This document shows positions 3,183-32,575 of a stretch of DNA of 33,347 nt, piece after piece. This DNA comes from Chrysochromulina tobinii. Lineage: Eukaryota > Haptophyta > Prymnesiales > Chrysochromulinaceae. The notes beneath the pieces were generated by a model that saw nothing but the letters and a program-made list of their open reading frames with translations, did no database searches and had not been told where the DNA came from. Numbering within the stretch: position 1 is the first letter of the stretch; the number at the start of each line of letters is the position of its first letter. The position numbers were made by a program, and so were the translations under genes. The stretch covers positions 1-33,347 of the forward strand of contig JWZX01002376.1 in the NCBI GenBank assembly GCA_001275005.1, read 5' to 3'.

Positions 3183-4899
3183 ATGTTGTCCAGCCTTCCG
3201 CGTCCGAGCTTCATGCGCGGCGCGGGTGGGCTCCCGAGTGGGTGGAAGGAGGCCACCGCTGCGGATGGCAGGACCTACTACTTCCACGCTGCGAGTGGGG
3301 AGACGAGCTGGGAGCGTCCGGTGGTGGCCGGAAGCGAAGATTCGGGCAAGTCCACGGCGGCGCTCGCCGTGAAGGTGAAGCCAGTGATCCCAAGCGTGCC
3401 CACAACTGCGGGCATCGGGAAGCTGCCCAACGGATGGAGAATGGTATCTTCACCAGAGGGCACGCCGTACTACTTCAACAAGAAAACCGGGGAGACCTCG
3501 TGGGAACGACCCGCCGGCTATGAGGAGGATGACAGCGCCGACACGTTGGGGCTCGAGAAGGCGACGCTTTCGGTCAAGGATGGCTGGCGGCGTACCAAGC
3601 AGGTGGCGGCGGCCACTGTTGGGCTCGGACGGCCAACGGGGAGCTCGGACGACGCGTGGCTCGACGGGCAGTACGAGCAGGTGCTTCAAGTGGAGCGCCA
3701 GATGCTGGGGCTCAAGCAGATGTGCGAGGCGTACGCCAAGTCGCTCGTCGACATGTTGCGCAGTAGCGAGCAGCTGGCGGCCAAGTTCGGCGAGTATCTG
3801 GTAGAGCCGGGTGCGGTGGGCACCGAGCCGGCGAGGCAGTCCGCCGCCGTCTGGAAGGAGGTCAACAAGAGCGGGCAGCGCTCACTCGAGGTGCAGTTCA
3901 CGAGCAAGGTGCTGCAGCCGCTCGCGGGCTACCTCGGGGAGATCGAGGGCATCAAGAAGCTGCATGCCGAGCACCTCAAGAAGAAGCTCGACTTTGAGTA
4001 CTACCGCCGCAAGGTGGATGAGCTCACTTTTCGTCCACCCAAGGATGCGGCCAAGCTCCCGCGCAACGCCGAGAAGCTGCGCGAGCGCGAGGCGGACCAC
4101 TGGAACTGCAAAAACGAGCTGATCGCGCGGCTGGCCGCACTGATCGCTGAGAAGTGGGACTTTGCCAACGCCCCTCTGCTGCACCTGCTCGAGTTCCAGC
4201 AAAGGTTCCACGCACAGATGAGCGAGGGCATGCGATCCTTGAGCGCCTTCACGCACGAGGGTACGCTGCTCGACGCCGAGGCGCGCCAGATGTCACGCCA
4301 GACGCTCCGTACTGAGGCGCTCGCCTCGCCTGTCGAAGCCAAACCTCTCGCTTCGTATCTGCCCCACGCGCCCGCCGCCTACTACGGAGCGCCACCTCCA
4401 GCTCCGCAGCCCTCATACTCTGAGCCGCCGCCGCCGCCGCCGTACGCCGCGCCGCCGCCTCAGCCGTCGTGCGCAGCGGCGCCGCCTCCGCAGCCGTCGT
4501 ACGCCGCGCCGCCGCCTCAGCCGCCGTGCGCAGCGGCGGCGCCGCCTCCGCAGCCGTCGTACGCCGCGCGGCCTCCCGCCCCACCACCGCTGCGAGCACC
4601 GCCGCACGGCGAGCAGGTGCGGGCCATCGGCGATTATATCTCGAATGACCCGCGCATGATCTCGTTCAGCGCCGGAGAGCTCATGTTGAAGGAAAAGGAG
4701 GAGGCCGGCTGGTTCTTTGGTTCGGTGCGTATCTGGCGTATCGGCGCGATCCCTCGACCTCAGGTCCACGTACCGGCCCTCTCCTCGCTGCCTGCTGCTC
4801 ATCTGCGTGTGTGCTCCGAAATGCTCGCAGAACTCGCGAGGTGAGACGGGCTACTTCCCTCCTAACTATGTCGAGCCAGTGCCGTATTTTGCAGATTGA
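3183..4899 (+). CDS. WW-WW-BAR-proline-rich-SH3 protein (membrane-curvature adaptor), 2 exons
   Basis: Exons 3183-4724 and 4831-4899, joined over a 106-nt GT-AG intron. The phase-0 join completes the SH3 domain (GWFFGS/NSRGETGYFPPNYVE) and gives 536 residues. Domains: WW1 around W21/W43 with Pro46; WW2 around W85/W107 with Pro110; a helical BAR domain about 140-355 with the hallmark LDFEYYRRKVDEL and a closing FQQRFHAQM helix; a Pro/Ala-rich linker about 385-470 with repeated AAPPPQPSYA units; and a C-terminal SH3 with ALYDY-like GDYISNDP and the PPNYVEP end. BAR domains sense or shape curved membranes, SH3 domains bind proline-rich partners such as dynamin, and WW domains bind PPxY-type ligands. 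I infer a role in endocytosis or cortical actin, like amphiphysin/Rvs167. The two N-terminal WW domains are unusual for that family. An alternative start is Met11 (3213). Confidence 0.85.
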
Positions 4900-5374: not shown

Positions 5375-6016
5375 ATGGATCCCGCCGCCGTGTTCGGGAG
5401 TCGCCGCCTAAAAGGTAAGATGCTGGCCGTCTTGCAAGCGGCGCGCTCAGAGCACGGCGAGGGCGAAGTCAGCGGGCCGGTGATGAAGGCAAGCGAGCTC
5501 CGCACTGCCCTCGCAGAGTCTCTTGGAGAGGAGGTACCGTCGAAGGAGCTGTTTCCATTGATGCAGATGGCAGATCCTGATAGCGAAGGCGTGATCACGC
5601 TGCCTCGTTTCCTCGAGGTTGTCGAAATGCGACGGATACATGCCGAGACTGAGCGAAGGCAGCGGCAGCTCCTGGCTGCGTACATGGCATTAGGTGGTAA
5701 CACTGACAAGGACGCGTCTGTGAAGAGCGACACACTGATGCAGATTGTCAGCGACTTTGTGGGCGCAGGAGCGTCCAAGGAGGCGATGCAGGCCGTTGTG
5801 AAGCATAAGATGAAATCCGTGCAGGAGATCATCGCCATGGGAGGCGCGCTCGACTCGGATGAGGAAGAGGAGATTCGAGATACTTCGAAGCTCGAATTTG
5901 AGCAACTCGAGGTGTTTGGAAGAGCATTGAAAGAGTGGGGATCGAGCAGAAGAGAGACCGGCACTGCTGAAGATGGCATTGACGAGGACGGCGTGAGTGC
6001 TGCCATCTTGAGATGA
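5375..6016 (+). CDS. EF-hand-like helical protein of unknown function
   Basis: A 213-residue acidic, helix-rich protein. Around residue 50 the sequence ELFPLMQMADPDSEGVITLP has the spacing of an EF-hand loop (D-x-D-x-E-G-x-I). The last loop position is not Glu, so calcium binding is doubtful. The preceding ELRTALAESLGEEVPSKEL has the helix-loop pattern of a calmodulin-like N-lobe. Later come a second helical pair (KSDTLMQIVSDFV...) and an acidic DSDEEEEI run. The overall plan recalls small EF-hand proteins of the axonemal dynein-regulatory complex, but I cannot assign it to one. Start: the frame is open from an ATG at 5291, but the extra 28 residues look like translated leader, so I favour MDPAAVFG at 5375. 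No intron is needed. Followed on the same strand by SNAPC1. Confidence 0.72.
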   Translation: MDPAAVFGSRRLKGKMLAVLQAARSEHGEGEVSGPVMKASELRTALAESLGEEVPSKELFPLMQMADPDSEGVITLPRFLEVVEMRRIHAETERRQRQLLAAYMALGGNTDKDASVKSDTLMQIVSDFVGAGASKEAMQAVVKHKMKSVQEIIAMGGALDSDEEEEIRDTSKLEFEQLEVFGRALKEWGSSRRETGTAEDGIDEDGVSAAILR

Positions 6017-7839: not shown

Positions 7840-8432
7840 ATCGAGACCGGGAGGAGTCGCACGGCTTGACTTTATCCACAGTACACAGTTCAAAGACTAC
7901 ACAGTACACAGTTCCACACCGCTCACCGGCCAAGACAGTCAAGCGGCAAGCCCTCGAGGCAAGCCCGTGGTGGCCCCAGCCCAAGCGCCACAGCCACCGC
8001 GGGCCACCCACCCGCGACGCTCACGCTGCAAGCACACGCGCGCGCCGCCTTCTGCTCTGATGTGCCAGGACTCCCTCCCCGCATAGTTGATTGAATGCAG
8101 TCGCAGAGTTCATTTGCATGCATTTGTGCACGTTCGTCGAGACTCTTCCCTCGCATGGCCTCATCGCTAGGCGCGACACGATTCGGCACTCCGACCACCC
8201 TTGCCTCGTTGATTGGATGGGCGGTCGCACGCTCGCTGCTGCACGGTAGGACGAGCGCCACCATCCACGCCCGTCTCGCGAGCGCCGTCTCCGGCCCTTG
8301 AGCCTTTGACGGCTCGGCTCGTGGCATCGTCCCATTGGGTGCGGCCTCTCCGGGAAGCAGCGCCCACGGCGGCGCTCAACGGGAAGCAGTGCCCACGGCG
8401 GCGCTCATCGGAAGGAGCGCCCACGGCGGCGC
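7840..8432. other. Intergenic region between convergent SNAPC1 and POC1
   Basis: Holds the 3' ends of both genes. A 15-bp direct repeat (CACAGTACACAGTTC at 7877-7891 and 7900-7914, spaced 23 bp) lies just after the SNAPC1 stop. Most of the 8351-8460 tandem repeat lies at the other end. No gene recognised. Confidence 0.45.
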
Positions 8433-15416: not shown

Positions 15417-15699
15417 GACGCTCGACGCGCGCTGCAGCGGCGGGCGCCCGCTGCCGCGCTGCCGCGCGGTTGTGGCGGGCGGCCGCGGCCGTTGGCAGTG
15501 CACCCGCGGACGCGGCGCGCGAACCCGGGCATCCTCAACTGGCGTGGTAGGTCAGGCGGCTGGCAAGCTGCCGTACGCCACGACACTGTGGTTACTCGAC
15601 GCCGTCGCTCGTCACGCGACGGCGGCGTCGAGTGACTTTTTGCGTTCCCGTTCGGGGGGCGCGCCAACGGGCGCGTCTACCGGCAGTGCAGACAACGCC
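15417..15699 (+). repeat. Left arm of long internal inverted repeat
   Basis: About 283 bp, inverse to 16489-16774. Matching landmarks include GTTGGCAGTGCACCCGCGGA, the ACTCGACGCCGTCGCTCGTC stretch and CGGCAGTGCAGACAACGCC at its inner end. Differences are scattered substitutions and small indels. Confidence 0.85.
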
Positions 15700-16488: not shown

Positions 16489-16774
16489 GGCGTTGTCTGC
16501 ACTGCCGGTAGACGCGCCCGCTGGCGCGCCCCCCGAACGGGAACGCAAAAAAGTCGCTCGACGCCGCCGTCGCGTGACGAGCGACGGCGTCGAGTAACCA
16601 CAGTGTCGCGTGGCGTACGGCAGCTTGCCAGCCGCCTGACCTACCATGCCAGTTGAGGATGCCCGGGTTCGCGCGCCGCGTCCGCGGGTGCACTGCCAAC
16701 GGCCGCGCCAGCCCGCCACATCCGCGCGGGAGCGCGGCAGCGGGCGCCCGCCGCTGCAGCGCGCGACGAGCGTC
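16489..16774 (-). repeat. Right arm of long internal inverted repeat
   Basis: About 286 bp, the inverse copy of 15417-15699. A piece of its outer part (GGATGCCCGGGTTCGCGCGC) recurs as a direct repeat just outside, near 16785 (GGATGCCCGGCTTCGCGCGC). Confidence 0.85.
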
Positions 16775-18238: not shown

Positions 18239-21200
18239 TCAGCCCAAGCCCGAGGAGAAGGGGCGCTGCGCCTCCGCCTGCAAGATCTCGCGCATCTTGC
18301 GCCGCTGGCGTAGCTCGAGCGCATGGCGCACGCCCCATCCCAAGCCCGCGCCCACGCTCGCCAGCACCACGAGCACAAGCGTCGCCGTGCCGAGGCTGAT
18401 CCCCTCCACCTGAGTGGCGGCGGTGGGCGTGGCGCAGTCGGCGCCGCGCCACCCCTCACGGCAGTAGCACTTTGCGAGCGCGCATACGCCGTGGCCCGAG
18501 CAGCCAGCCGGACAAGGGACGAGCTCGTCACAGGCCGGGCCTGTCCATCCCGGGTCGCAGAAGCAGACGCCGTACGCGCACACGCCGTGTTCCGAGCAGC
18601 CGCCTTCACAGGGCACGGCTTGCGAGCAGTCGTCGCCGCGCCATCCAGGGTCGCACACGCACTTCCCATGGAAGCACTCGCCGCGCGAGGAGCAGCCGCC
18701 CAGGCACGCAGCGGAGCCGGCCGAGGCGGTCAGCTTTAAGGTCAGCTCGGGCTTCGGGGCAGCGGCGGCGGCCGAGGCGGCGGCGGGGGCGGCGGCCGGC
18801 CGGGAGCCGCCGCTGGCGGTGTAGGCCGAGGGCCACACGCGCGCGGGGACCAAGCCCGCAGCTTGCTGCGCCGGCGTCGCGCTCTGCAGGCGGTCAGCGC
18901 CTTTGCCGTCAGCGCTCCATTGCCGCCACCCGGCCGCGGTCGCCGCCGCCGCTGCCGCCGCCGTCAGCGGCTGCGGCGCCTCGGAGAGCTGCAACGCCGA
19001 TGGGTACACGGGGTACGCGCCGTCTGCGCCATCGTCTGCGGCACCGCTGTGCCCGAGGAATAGCAGGGCGCGCCCTGGCGCCCTGGCCGCGCGCTGTACC
19101 GGGCGCGTGCGGTACTCGACCAGACCAGTGGCGCTACCCTCGACGGCACGGTTGGACCCCTCGACGCCCACGTTGGCCGCGGCAGAGGGCGCGTCGCCGG
19201 TTTGGAACGCGATCGCGGCGGCGGCGGTGAACACCTCGGAGCACGCCACGCCACCCACGCCCGCGACGCACACGCACGTACCCAGCGCACATAGGCCACG
19301 GCCCGAGCAGGTGCGCCCGTTGGCCACTGGGCACCGTACCTGTGGGGAAGGGGGGGGGGCGCCGTGGTGAGCACCTGCATGCAAGGCCGGCCGTTGGCCA
19401 CTGGGCACCGTACCTGATCCAGGCAGTCGGGGCCGCCGTAGCCGGCATCGCAGAAGCAGCTGCCGTGCACACAGAGCCCGCGCTGGCTGCACTGGCCCGG
19501 GCAGGGCGTGGGCAGCTCGCATGCATGCCCCTCGAAGCCCGCGTCACAGAAGCACTGGCCATGTCGGCAGAGCCCGTGAGAGGAGCAGTCCTCCGGGCAC
19601 GCCGAGACCAGCGAGCAGTCCTCGCCCTCGTACCTGTGGGGAAGGGGGGGCGCCGTGGTGAGCACCTGCATGCAAGGCCCGAGCAGTCCTCGCCCTCGTA
19701 CCCGGGGAAGCACAGGCAGCGGCCGCCCCAGCAGAGCCCTTGGTTGCGACACTCGTGCGGACACGTCTGCTGCACCTCGCAGGCCTCCCCGGTGAACCCG
19801 GGCTCGCACACGCACTGACCACGCTCGCAGCGACCGTTGCCGGAGCACGTATCTCCCGCGGAGCTCGACGGGCACTTGAGCCGCCGAGTGCAGTCGTCGC
19901 CGCCCCATCCGGTGTAACAGAAGCACCGGCCGCTGGCGCACACGCCTTGCTCCGCGCCGCCACAGCCATGCGGGCACTCGATCTTATGCGAGCACTGCGG
20001 ACCATAGAAGCCCGGATCGCAGAAGCACCGGCCGTGCTCGCACACGCCGACGCTGCCGCACTGCTCGGGCCCGGTGCAGCCCGTTCGGGTCGCACAGTCG
20101 AGTCCGTCGAAGCCCGGCTCACAGTAGCACCGGCCATAGGCGCACACGCCGTGGCCCGAGCAGTCGTTTCCGGGGCAGCCGCGTGGAACCGAGCAGTCGG
20201 TCCCAGCCCACTCGAGGTCGCATTCGCACACGCCGTGGACGCACACGCCGTGATGATGGCACTCATTGAGGCACGAGGGCAGGGGCACCGCACAGTCGAG
20301 GCCGCCGTAGCCCTCCTCGCACAAGCACTTGCCGCCCAGGCACAGCCCGTGCGCCGAGCACGCGTGCGGGCACTCGATCGGCTGCTCGCAGGCCACGCCC
20401 TGCCAGCTAGGCTCGCAGAAGCAGGTGCCGAGCCGGCACGCGCCATGGCCGGTGCAGTTGGCCTGACACTCGAAGAGGGCTTGAGAGCAGTCGTCGCCGC
20501 CGTAGCCGGCCTCGCACGCACACGCGCCGCGGAAGCAGACGCCGCGGTGCGAGCAGTCGTTGACGCAGCTGGCCACCTCGGCGCACGTCTCGCCGCCGAA
20601 GCCGGGGTCGCACCAGCACTGGCCGTGCACGCAACGGCCGCGCTGCACACCGTCCGCGTCACGGCAGTCGCCCGGGCAGGGCAGGGCTTCGTCACACGCG
20701 ACGCCAGCGAAGCCAGGCTCGCAGAGGCACTTGCCCTCGAAGCACTCGCCGCGTCCGGAGCAGCTCGTGTGCTCGTGGCTCCCCGGGCAAGGCTCAGTCA
20801 CTTCGCACCCCTCGCCCGACGAGCCATACAGGCAGTAGCACTTGGCATTGATGCAGATGCCGCGCCCTGAGCAGCCGTGAGGGCACGCGACGAGCTCCGA
20901 GCAATCGGCGCCAGTGAAGCCCGCGGCGCACGTGCAACGGCCGTGCACGCACACGCCGTGGGCCGAGCAGTCGTTGGCACAGCGCGCGATCAGCTCGCAC
21001 TGCGGCCCATCGAAGCCCGGGTCGCAGAAGCAACGGCCGTGCGCGCACACGCCGCGCTCGTGGCAGTTGCACTCCGAGAGCAGAGAGCAGTCGTAGCCTT
21101 CGTAGCCGGGCTCACACAAGCAGCGGCCCTGCCAGCACTTGCCGTGCGCCGAGCAGCTCGACGGGCAGCTCGTCGAGCCGATGATCGGGCCCGCCGCCGC

Positions 21201-22511
21201 CATCGCGCCACCGAGGCTCTTCGCGCCTTCGGCCGTAATAGGCGTGTGACGGCGTGCATACTTGAACGAGAGGCTGCGCACTTCGTCGGTGCATGCCGAA
21301 CCGGCGCACCCACCAAAGGTGAAGACCGTGCGCCCACGCAGCGTCAGCGACTGGCCGTAGCGCGCGGGGGGGGGCGTCCCAGACGGAAGAGGGCGCGACC
21401 AGCTAAAGGTCTCAGCGTCCAGGATGGCGACGTCTGGCAATGGAGTGCGCTGTGGGGTGATCCAACCCCCGAGGATCAGAAGGCGGGAGCCGAGGGTGAG
21501 GGCGGCATGCAGCGAGCGCGCGCTCGGTGCCAGATCCGTCGCCTGCATCTGCACCGCCGGGTCGTGCCACGTCGATGTGATCACGTCGAAGTACGCCAGG
21601 TCGGTGAGCGACACGTAAGAACGGCCCACCTTACCAACGCCTCCGTAGACCCAGAGCTTGGTGCCTATGAGCGCGGCGCTGTGGCCCTCGCGCGGCGCAG
21701 GCAGCGCGCATGGCATGGGCACGCAGCGGGCCTTGGGGTCCGTCCATTGCTTCGCATCCGATGCGAGCACGTGCACATCGTTGAAGGGCGTCGCGTCGTC
21801 TGTGCCTCCGAACAGCACGAAGCCGCCGGCGAAGCGGGTGAGGGTGGCGCCTTGGCGCGGCTTGGGCGCGACGCCCGCGGGCATGGCGAGGGTCCACACG
21901 CGCGTCGTCGCGTCGAAGAGGTGCACCTTGCTCGTGTACGTCCCCGCGTACCCACCGAAGACGGCGAGGACTGGTCCATTGGACGCGCACGCCACATTGG
22001 ACGCTGGGTGAGGCGCGCTGCCCGAGGTCGCGACGCGCGACCAGGCGCCCGAGCTCAGGTCGAGCGCGTGCATGTCGTTGAGGCACTTGCTGCGCGTGCC
22101 GGCCGCGCAACCCCCGAAGATGTACAGCGTCTGCAGCACGAGGTGCGAGCAGTGGCCACCGCGGGGTGAGGGCGGCGTGCCCGTGGAGGGGAAGACGCTC
22201 CACTCGGCCTGCTCCTCCTGGAACTCGAGCTGCTGAATGAAGCTCATCGGAGCGCTGTGGTTGCCGATCCGGCTCAAAGCCTTGTCGTTCGAGGCCGGCG
22301 CCACGATCGCACACAGCTTGGCGATCGAGCCGCTGGCGACGTGTGACCCATTGTGCTGAGCGTGATCGAGGAGCCCGCGGAGTGACCCAAGGCAAGGATC
22401 TGGGGCATCGTGAGCGTCTGTAACGCTGAACGCCCCGGCGAAAGGTACGGCCGTGAGAGTGGCGAGGGCGGCGAGCGTCCACACCCCGGACCGCTCAACA
22501 CTCATTGCCAT
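18239..22511 (-). CDS. Kelch + multi-EGF type I membrane protein (attractin/MEGF8-like plan), 3 exons
   Basis: Exons 22511-19702, 19633-19414 and 19339-18239 give 1,376 residues. The two introns remove duplicated sequence and restore perfect EGF units. An N-terminal signal peptide (VWTLAALATLTAVPFAGAFS) is followed by a kelch propeller of about six blades (roughly 100-430), each with GG pairs such as LYIFGG, VFGGY, VLFGG, WVYGG, LILGG and FTFGG. Then 18 EGF-like repeats of the tenascin type, C-x3-C-x3-GxCxxGxCxCxxGxxGxxC; a poly-Ala/Ser-rich spacer of about 150 residues; three more EGF repeats; a single membrane helix (TATLVLVVLASVGAGLGWGV); and a short basic cytoplasmic tail (LRQRRKMREILQ). 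I infer a cell-surface adhesion or receptor protein. The kelch plus EGF plus one-TM plan recalls animal attractin and MEGF8, but orthology is not claimed; CUB and PSI domains are not seen. Confidence 0.9.
19340..19413 (-). mobile_element. Introner-like intron 2 of the kelch-EGF gene (74 nt)
   Basis: On the minus strand the intron starts with a 23-nt copy of the downstream exon start (GTACGGTGCCCAGTGG... at 19413-19391; exon copy at 19339-19317). Then come CC, then the shared element GGCCTTGCATGCAGGTGC...TTCCCCACAG with a run of 10 C. The phase-0 splice joins CLDQ to VRCP in EGF unit 18. The 5' GT lies in the duplicated host sequence and the 3' AG in the element. Confidence 0.88.
19634..19701 (-). 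mobile_element. Introner-like intron 1 of the kelch-EGF gene (68 nt)
   Basis: On the minus strand the intron starts with a 22-nt copy of the downstream exon start (GTACGAGGGCGAGGAC... at 19701-19680; exon copy at 19633-19612). The 46-nt shared element follows, GGCCTTGCATGCAGGTGC...TTCCCCACAG, with a run of 7 C. The phase-2 splice restores FPGYEGEDCS in EGF unit 15. Element sequence is identical to that in intron 2 apart from the C-run and two extra C at the 5' edge. Confidence 0.88.
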
Positions 22512-22561: not shown

Positions 22562-22683
22562 TGAGCGCGAGGGGAGTTTTCTTCTGGTCCTGCGCGAGTT
22601 TCATCCTCTACGGTCCCTCTCATGAGCGCGAGGGGAGTTTTCTTCTGGTCCTGCGCGAGTTTCATCCTCTACGGTCCCTCTCA
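22562..22683. repeat. Perfect 61-bp tandem duplication
   Basis: Two head-to-tail copies (22562-22622 and 22623-22683) beginning TGAGCGCGAGGGGAGTTTTC and ending CTCTACGGTCCCTCTCA. It lies in the 234-bp gap between the kelch-EGF start codon and the AP-2 sigma stop codon, so it may affect the former's promoter and the latter's 3' UTR. Confidence 0.95.
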
Positions 22684-30156: not shown

Positions 30157-32575
30157 TCAGTTCGGCCTGCTGCCGCCTCCGCGGCTCTTGCCGGCACCTC
30201 TGCCTTCGCCACGCACGTGTCCGGGCCCATGGCTCTTGCTGCTACCACCTCGCCCCCCTCTGCCACCGCCTTTGCTGCCTGCACCACTGTAGGACGTGGG
30301 CGGAGATGCATCAGTGCCCATTGAACCCGTTGTAGGGTCGACCACCCCTTTGGCAAAGTAGGGGATTGAACCCGTTGCAGGGTCGACCACCCCTTTGGCA
30401 AAGTAGGGGAGGTCGCCGTCTTTGTGTGCAGCTGGGGCACTGGCGTCACCGGCAAGACCTTGCGCGTGTGCCACAGCATACGCCGCAGCCGGCACCGGTT
30501 GTGCCTGCTGCGTGTGCGGCTCGAGGGGCAGCGGAAACCCAGATGCCACATGCAGAACCTGATCGACAGACAACGGCAGTGGTAACTGAAGGCGTGGAGC
30601 TGCTGATGAAGCAGGAGGCCACGGAGCGACGCCACCAGCAGTCGCCAGCGGCACTTCCATATGGACGGCGAGGGCAGAGCCTTCATCTGATCCTGCCCCG
30701 GGCATTGCAGCGTCACATATGGAAGGCAAGATGTGGGCAAGGCGAGGGGCGCATGAGGAGATTGAGGTAGAGCAGCCGCATCCGCCGATATATCCTGGCA
30801 AAGGGAACACGCCTGCGCTTACGAAAGAAGGGATGAGACGCCGAGTCAGCATACGAGGTTCCGAAATTGGGAGGCGGGAAATCCGGCTCGTGTGCACCTG
30901 GGAGATGGAGTGGCAGGCTGCGAGCTGCGCTTCCATCACTCTGATAGAGCGATGACTGTATGGAAGATGAAAGCGCCGTCAGCGAAGGCAATTGATGGTT
31001 TGACGCTTCAGTCGGCGAGCAAAACTGTAAAACCGAGGGCGGCGGCAATGGCAGAAGCGCGGGGCCCGGCTCATCCAGCCCGAGCGATGCAAGTACGTTC
31101 GAGAGCGGTGACGGACAGGACAGAGTTGCGCTGGCTGTATGCGAGTCTGCACGAGAACCGGTGGCGGCAAAGTGTCCGTGCATCGCATGCAAAGAGGAGC
31201 TGAACGGTTGGCGATAGGCATCCCTTGTTTCGTTGTCATATCGACTGCTCCCGTCACCTAATGGCGCCGCAGCAACGGTCCGAGTGCTGTGCTGCAACGG
31301 CTTCACGAACGACTCACAGTCTCCAGAGCTGCCATAGTCCGCACAGGCCAGCATATGATTCAAGGCGCGGTTGCCGCCGCCCTGGGTCTCATGCGGATTC
31401 ATATGAACCGTACCGGTGTGATGAGTGCCGGCGCAGCGGGCTTGCTGGGCGAATGGCAGCAGGTTCGAATACGAGACGCTCTGCGACGGCGCGTGGTTCG
31501 CATGCAAATGGCAACTACTGACCGGGGGCAGCGGCCATGGCATCATATCAAGCCCTGCACCAGCTTGAGCCGCTCCCATGCTCATGCCTGCCTGCGACGG
31601 CAGCAGATAGGGAAGCGGTGGTGGTGGTGTCCTCATCGATGTCGATGACTGTGGCGGCGGCGGTAACGGCGGCGGTGGCCGTGGCGGCGGTGGCGGGACT
31701 GGTACAAAGACGCCGAGCATTTCGGGTGCGTGCGGCGCGTGCAGCTGTGGCTGCCCGACAGCGCCGCCGAGAGGAGCGACGAACTGATGGTGACACGGTT
31801 GATAAGCCGCCGTAGGCGGCGACGGGAACGGCGCGTACATGGGCGGATGCGACTGCTGGTAAGGATAAAACGGTGGCATGGGCGGCTGGGCGGGTGGCAC
31901 CCATCGAACGGCGCTGCGGTTGTAGTCCGGATCGAATCCTGCTTTGCCCTGCAGCTCATGGCGATTCTCGGCGCGCACCACCTTCTTGCCCTTCTTGCCG
32001 TTGGAGCCACCGGCTGCCGTGCAGCTACTCCCGGAACCAGCACTGGAACCGTGTGGAGCACTGGCGGCGCATGGACAGCTGCTGACGTCGCTACTTCCGC
32101 CGCAGTCGCACACCCTGTCGATGCCGCCAGGAGCACCGGCTCCACCACCTGCGCTCACACCATGCTCGAAACCACGCAGCGCCAGGGCAGCCGCAGCCGC
32201 AGCCGCAGCCGCTGCCGCTGCCGGAGCCGCTGCCGCTGCCGCTGAATTCGCAGTAGGCTCCGGTGCTGGCGCTGGCACGACTGGTGATGAGTCGTCACCC
32301 TCGACGGCGTCACTTCCGAAGATGCGCGCCTTGGCCACAGCGTACGCGTTCGCGCGCTGCCGTAAGCGAGTCGCTTCCTCTTCGGCGCTGTGCTTCGGCG
32401 GCGGCGCCTTTGCAGACCCGGGAGCGCTCTGCGGACGCACGAGCATCTTGACCTTCTCCGCTGCGATCTTCGTCGGTGCCGATTCATCGACTCCTACTGG
32501 CACCATCCTTGTCACGCAGGAGGTCACGCAGCGGCAGACCACGGCGTTTTCCCCACATGATGGAATAGAAGTCAC
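30157..32575 (-). CDS. SUZ-domain RNA-binding-type protein with RG-rich C-terminus, 2 exons
   Basis: Exon 1 is 32575-30823 and exon 2 is 30692-30157. The 130-nt intron (30822-30693, donor GTAAGC, acceptor GGCAG, phase 1) joins the two frames with no stop, total 762 residues. Near the N-terminus KVKMLVRPQSAP and EEEATRLRQRANAYAVAKAR-IFG match the SUZ domain, an RNA-binding motif of R3H-type and related mRNA regulators. A poly-Ala tract and long Pro/Ser/Gln-rich disorder follow, with polyproline runs. The C-terminus, GGGRGGRGG...GPGHVRGEGRGAG, resembles the SUZ-C motif found at the ends of SUZ proteins. No R3H domain is seen. The N-terminal 25 residues look unlike a conserved start, so an upstream exon is possible, but it would overlap the divergent plus-strand gene. 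Probable role in cytoplasmic mRNA control. Confidence 0.78.
30320..30409. repeat. 45-bp in-frame tandem duplication in the SUZ-domain gene
   Basis: Two copies (30320-30364, 30365-30409) starting ATTGAACCCGTTG and differing at one base (T or C at position 14). They encode two 15-residue units of PYFAKGVVDP(A/T)TGSI/M type. Confidence 0.92.

Follow-up and report, generated by a model that had tools for sequence, protein, structure and literature searches.

The origin of new spliceosomal introns is a long-standing question, and many of the introners described resemble DNA transposons with short target duplications; those of Micromonas and Aureococcus were reportedly treated by Huff, Zilberman and Roy in 2016. 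The stretch of Chrysochromulina tobinii DNA analysed here (33,347 nt, hereafter the window) raises this question at a single gene, for which an earlier note had described two introns carrying the same inserted sequence between direct repeats of the local exon. Are these introns the products of an intron-generating element, how common is such an element in the genome, and by what reaction could it have entered the exons?

The kelch-EGF gene and its two predicted introns

The gene encoded domains of the Pfam kelch and EGF families (Table 1), and its start codon, the third codon of the stop-to-stop frame, was our own choice. Both introns were found on the minus strand by direct reading and scripted excision, with the repeats and coordinates as the earlier note had given them, and the exon separating them was 220 nt. 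Cutting out one repeat copy and the module, which the note took to restore an intact EGF unit each time, also restored the frame: 1378 codons preceded the stop with both introns removed, as against a stop at codon 1127 without any excision, at codon 1161 with only intron A removed and at codon 1159 with only intron B removed. Excision of both introns is therefore needed, since only then is the full kelch-EGF frame obtained.

Table 1 Features of the kelch-EGF gene (positions in the window)
Feature	Position	Strand	Basis
Kelch-EGF gene, ATG to stop, two introns	18239..22511	-	ORFs, Pfam kelch and EGF families, spliced frame
Predicted intron A, 68 nt	19634..19701	-	Direct reading and scripted excision
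Target copy 1 of intron A, 22 nt GTACGAGGGCGAGGACTGCTCG, at the front of the intron; would supply the 5′ splice site GTACGA	19680..19701	-	
Introner module A, 46 nt, 7-C run	19634..19679	-	
25-nt conserved core of module A; branch-site-like CTCAC at 19662-19658	19649..19673	-	
Target copy 2 of intron A, 22 nt, remaining exon	19612..19633	-	
Predicted intron B, 74 nt	19340..19413	-	Direct reading and scripted excision
Target copy 1 of intron B, 23 nt GTACGGTGCCCAGTGGCCAACGG, at the front of the intron; would supply the 5′ splice site GTACGG	19391..19413	-	
Introner module B, 49 nt, with a run of 10 C; additional CC at 19390-19389	19340..19388	-	
25-nt conserved core of module B; CTCAC at 19371-19367	19358..19382	-	
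Target copy 2 of intron B, 23 nt, remaining exon	19317..19339	-	

A protein of 431 aa (P0122), from an ENA contig of 1911 nt that is either intron-less DNA or RNA-derived, had no extra residues at either junction when compared by eye. The first 23 nt of the module matched twice in the window (up to 3 mismatches) and not at all in 100 shuffles. A rare variant, GGCCTTGCATGCAGGTGCTCACCACGG, matched the genome at 113 places when up to 2 mismatches were allowed and at four without any, two of the four being in the introns of the window; its presence in both copies suggests a local hop or a common source, and the identical repeats suggest that introns A and B were inserted recently.

Near the gene, an Hsp70 gene had its best species-named relative in Prymnesium parvum (57%), and the neighbouring RFC gene shared 99% identity with a protein from a metagenome and 72% with that of Haptolina ericina (taxid 156174, order Prymnesiales). 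Both place the host among the haptophytes, with no identical protein under a species name among the hits listed. Elsewhere in the window, the arms of a long inverted repeat (15417-15699 and 16489-16774, 96-98% complementary and about 790 nt apart) look like a foldback or TIR element; a perfect 61-nt tandem duplication was located at 22562-22683 and a near-perfect 45-nt one at 30320-30409.

A multi-copy family with exon-start duplications of variable length

Chrysochromulina tobin, a freshwater haptophyte, has been described with a genome of 59 Mb and a GC content of 63.4% (PMC4580454). In the 53.15 Mb searched here (2253 contigs; GC 64% over the 219 kb that were read), the 25-nt core GCATGCANGTGCTCACCACGGCGCC had 1919 matches with up to 2 mismatches (905 + 1014), whereas the reversed pattern had none, so that the core of the two introns is indeed found elsewhere in the genome and highly similar predicted introns lie at many unrelated positions. 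Consensus building from 84 copies gave a sharp block from GCATGC to GGCGCC, followed by a variable tract and by CCCCACAG. The left edge was rather sharp at GCATGC, with the letters 5′ of it varying by subfamily, and the right end was CACAG, without a poly-A or short-repeat 3′ tail. Strong conservation was confined to the 25-nt core, and the tract between it and CCCCACAG varied from copy to copy; thus, of the 46-nt repeated core reported before, the shared module stands, but its strongly conserved part is considerably shorter. CTCAC in the core matches the branch-site consensus, yUnAy, and is a candidate branch site. Terminal inverted repeats were absent from all 67 modules compared (longest terminal match, 2 nt). 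A search with the extension CTAAGATGGACCCTGCC gave 7 matches with up to 3 mismatches, from which no donor was named. Microhomology at the left edge was noticed by eye in several core copies. The reverse transcriptase domain RVT_1 had 26 matches in the genome, 22 of them above the cut-off, as a count of domains only, not linked to the module.

The acceptor is part of the module. Within 212 kb, the core lay no more than 60 nt upstream at 50 of the 54 CCCCACAGG sites; CCCCACAG as the ordinary acceptor of the species was therefore unsupported. The exact 17-mer GTGCTCACCACGGCGCC occurred 668 times in the genome, 418 times with CCACAG and 402 times with CCACAGG within 20 nt. GT followed immediately (CCACAGGT) in 360 of the 418 CCACAG-bearing copies (86%), compared with a background of 6.6% after other ACAG in the 212 kb (n = 909). 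Such a share is expected under the model set out below, in which the nucleotides following the acceptor are a second copy of the ones used as 5′ splice site. One splice site would thus be carried and the other taken from the target, which supports the earlier reading of an introner-like multi-copy sequence using the 5′ splice site of a duplicated target.

For 124 core copies, with up to 6 mismatches allowed, the flanking sequence was read in the window and in fetched loci, a non-random sample picked by similarity to the core of the window or to one extended form of it. No acceptor was present within 45 nt in 26 of the copies and 20 more trailed another core by 130 nt or less, leaving 78 single acceptor-bearing copies. 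In 37 of the 78, a stretch of 12 nt or more beginning at the 3′ splice junction was duplicated exactly (0 of 1560 shuffled pairings), and 35 of these 37 duplications opened with GT; the predicted introns were 64-93 nt long, with two exceptions of 168 and 170 nt. Many of the other 41 single copies had diverged duplications. The nine clean copies, with 7 nt or less between duplication and core, had duplications of 22, 23, 25, 27, 30, 31, 33, 36 and 42 nt; the 36-nt one belongs to a tandem pair, of which it is the first unit, and chance may account for a few of the terminal matches. With such a spread the length is not fixed, and a constant duplication of 22-23 nt, as first proposed, is ruled out. 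That the duplications are unusually long was borne out by comparison with the 3-9 bp of the introners characterised so far (Gozashti et al. 2022, PMC9860276).

Frames compatible with splicing were found on the two sides of 30 of 57 copies with clear duplications, against 1/6 expected (P about 6e-10), when the best frames of 90 nt on each side were compared by codon scores from 40 long ORFs; the test failed in the other 27, with stretches that were short and some that lay in arrays or beside other introns. Local alignment of the flanks placed 41 of 121 copies above the 99th percentile of the control (48.9), which serves as a source of examples only, the control being inflated by core sequence in the flanks. 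The only near-identical pair among the window and 20 loci (L014 and L015, 99.8% over 5968 nt) contained no introner-sized gap.

Chance as the origin of repeats and core is ruled out by the 100 shuffles, the control core search and the 1560 pairings, each of which gave zero, and assembly artefacts by the same module lying between unrelated duplications at many loci. Carriage by viruses was also rejected. Two contigs of viral collections matched: one of 4.6 kb (L029), with GACGAACCCT repeats and one core copy at 4350-4554 near its last bases and reading frames that look phage-like, is probably chimeric, and the match in the other (L050), inside a phage-like-looking open frame, was taken as chance.

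Arrays, acceptor-less copies and a second acceptor family

Tandem arrays of duplication plus core were observed, for example in L013, L044, L009 and L017, which indicates that slippage operates after insertion. Slippage between the long repeats is in keeping with the arrays and would be expected to remove such introns precisely as well. In L017 (minus strand, about 5500-5790 and 8140-8260), the bare 25-nt core was repeated in three arrays, whose periods (45, 36 and 51 nt) are multiples of three, and was flanked in them by duplications of 20, 11 and 26 nt, respectively. An open frame was present in each, so that these arrays apparently lie in frame within coding sequence. A further acceptor-less core was located between 27-nt repeats in L023. 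Copies of this kind indicate that the long duplication is not solely a product of selection for a minimum intron length, and those of L017, in open frames and with duplications, that the end inserted can be something other than an intron 3′ terminus. As a separate observation, L009 and other 10-kb loci contained many tandem repeats with units of 9-11 nt, such as TGATTGCC, CTGATGACCT, CCCTGACGAA and GGGCAATTA, some of them enclosed by direct repeats of 19-25 nt.

Direct repeats of at least 16 nt lying 30-170 nt apart amounted to 323 pairs in 212 kb and to none in triplet-shuffled sequence; 49 pairs involved the core, and many of the others were tandem repeats. An intron-like layout was found at 27 sites, 16 with the core and 11 without it. 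The filter for this layout passed 28 of 602 pairs, against 6 of 602 on reversed sequence; some of the 11 core-free sites may therefore be due to chance. Some of these 11 ended in CTCCCTCATCAG or nearly so.

A second family of acceptors, unrelated to the core and ending in TGATTGCCTCCCTCATCAG, was observed in L013, L017, L018 and L019. Allowing up to 1 mismatch, its pattern, GATTGCCTCCCTCATCAGG, matched the genome 2219 times and the control not at all. Among 43 such acceptors examined, 25 were followed by GT, and for 12 an exact copy of no fewer than 12 nt lay upstream (control, 2 of 430); these 12 duplications came from four loci, several being array units, and represent perhaps five separate events. 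In L013, an insert of no more than 32 nt was enclosed by a 33-nt duplication. The same duplication habit is thus partly shown for the second family, and the evidence that two unrelated modules have it is good but limited. The single element of the earlier note accordingly stands as one core family, to which at least one further acceptor family with exon-start duplications may have to be added.

Possible routes of insertion and comparison with known systems

These observations point, with a probability of roughly 0.7, to a haptophyte introner system with unusually long and variable duplications, in which the module is the acceptor half of an intron and splicing restores the message. The module would consist only of the near-invariant core with its branch-site-like CTCAC, a mostly pyrimidine variable tract and the terminal CCCCACAG. 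It would enter an exon at a (G)|GT site through a staggered cut of variable length, and fill-in would leave a second copy of about 20-40 nt from the start of the downstream exon. Of the two copies, copy 1 would form the front of the intron and give the 5′ splice site, the module would provide the branch site and the 3′ splice site, and copy 2 would stay exon, so that splicing would restore the original message. Weighing against this acceptor-half model are the single copies without an exact 12-nt duplication (41 of 78), the core copies lacking a nearby acceptor (26 of 124), the copies that failed the frame test (27 of 57), the small number of loci behind the second family and the choice of loci by similarity.

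For the chemistry, which, like the splicing, we infer, an RNA template is our first choice, at slightly less than even odds. The 3′ end of an excised intron would attach at G|GT, either through one-step reverse splicing or in the manner of LINEs, through target-primed reverse transcription; the position of a second nick, 20-40 nt farther downstream, would set the length of the duplication, and synthesis of the copy would break off before the 5′ end was reached. Both one-step reverse splicing with reverse transcription and LINE-like insertion would be expected to leave variable duplications and a right junction placed exactly at AG|GT. However, selection for seamless splicing could also yield the exact junction, and the sharp left edge at GCATGC speaks against free truncation as in LINE copies.

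The main rival is the repair of staggered double-strand breaks, which we hold to be rather unlikely. Nicks on opposite strands 20-40 nt apart would be filled in and duplicated while an acceptor-bearing scrap of DNA or cDNA was captured, and selection would retain those exonic insertions that are spliced seamlessly, hence the exact AG|GT junction. The variable duplication length, the occurrence of a second, unrelated insert and the acceptor-less copies of L017 and L023 agree with it, the latter being better explained in this way than by RNA templating, and new introns of Daphnia have been described in such terms (PMC4202315), but with repeats of just 4-12 bp. The inserts, however, are not the non-recurrent filler of staggered breaks: random capture should not yield the same 25-nt core 1919 times, and the module ends are too regular for it. 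Still less probable is that the module is a non-autonomous DNA transposon, mobilised by a transposase of the host or of an autonomous element that makes an exceptionally long target duplication; the earlier note implied such an origin, and it has been proposed for the introners of Micromonas and Aureococcus. The defined core with its sharp left edge and the carriage of one splice site, the other coming from the target as in described introners (PMC9860276), are in line with it, whereas the modules lack terminal inverted repeats and a transposase of fixed stagger is disfavoured because it leaves the 22-42 nt spread unexplained. We give almost no credence to the proposal that there is no mobile element, the introns having arisen by tandem duplication of AGGT-containing exon segments or from assembly errors. 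Arrays of duplication plus core do exist, but the introns do not consist solely of duplicated exon; the same exon-foreign module lies between unrelated duplications at many loci, and also on a contig of another collection (L029).

A broader version of the introner reading, which we consider tentative and doubtful, is a general intron-birth reaction not bound to one element, in which 3′ halves of existing introns, from at least two unrelated families, are pasted into exons and the long variable duplication becomes the new 5′ half. If true, it would amount to half-intron retroposition, for instance by one-step reverse splicing into DNA followed by target-primed reverse transcription, and through slippage between the long repeats such introns could grow into arrays or be lost precisely from the DNA. 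Since the duplications are long, variable and often intact, each insertion would record the cut positions on both strands. The insert is little more than branch site and acceptor, the core has some two thousand matches in the 53 Mb of the genome, and the arrays hint at ready expansion and maybe at loss as well; the reaction could be amenable to direct testing.

Target-primed reverse transcription of LINEs and SINEs leaves variable target duplications and one exact junction at the 3′ end of the element. The introns described here resemble such insertions in both respects, although the exactness may also come from selection, and differ from them in having no poly-A or other tail and a less variable 5′ edge. 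Fungal introner-like elements, for which reverse splicing has been proposed (PMC9860276, PMC3443670, the latter also reviewing intron-gain models), are likewise intron-sized, multi-copy and spliced, here by prediction, with an RNA route proposed; target duplications are found here, whereas none are reported for them in these sources. The Daphnia introns share a direct repeat of the adjacent exon, of variable length, at the far end of the intron, but their repeats are shorter and no recurrent insert family like the present one is described for them in the passages concerned (PMC4202315). Repeated introns with direct repeats at their borders are also known from Amoebophrya, where the direct repeats are 3-5 nt and inverted repeats of 8-20 nt occur (PMC7789003), unlike the modules here, which lack terminal inverted repeats. 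For 213 introns of every kind, repeats near the borders were reported with lengths of 4-30 bp and an average of 11.4 (PMC11782384). Within the portions of the literature covered, neither an introner with duplications of more than 20 nt nor this module was found. The closest likeness is to introners as characterised in PMC9860276, namely similar introns in large number at unrelated sites, a carried splice site combined with one from the duplicated target, and seamless splicing, here predicted; the differences lie in the 22-42 nt variable duplications, the lack of terminal inverted repeats and a module of only 40-50 nt. In the Chrysochromulina family of that study, the 5′ splice site is the one carried and the duplications measure 4 bp, a layout opposite to that of the present module, which carries the 3′ one.
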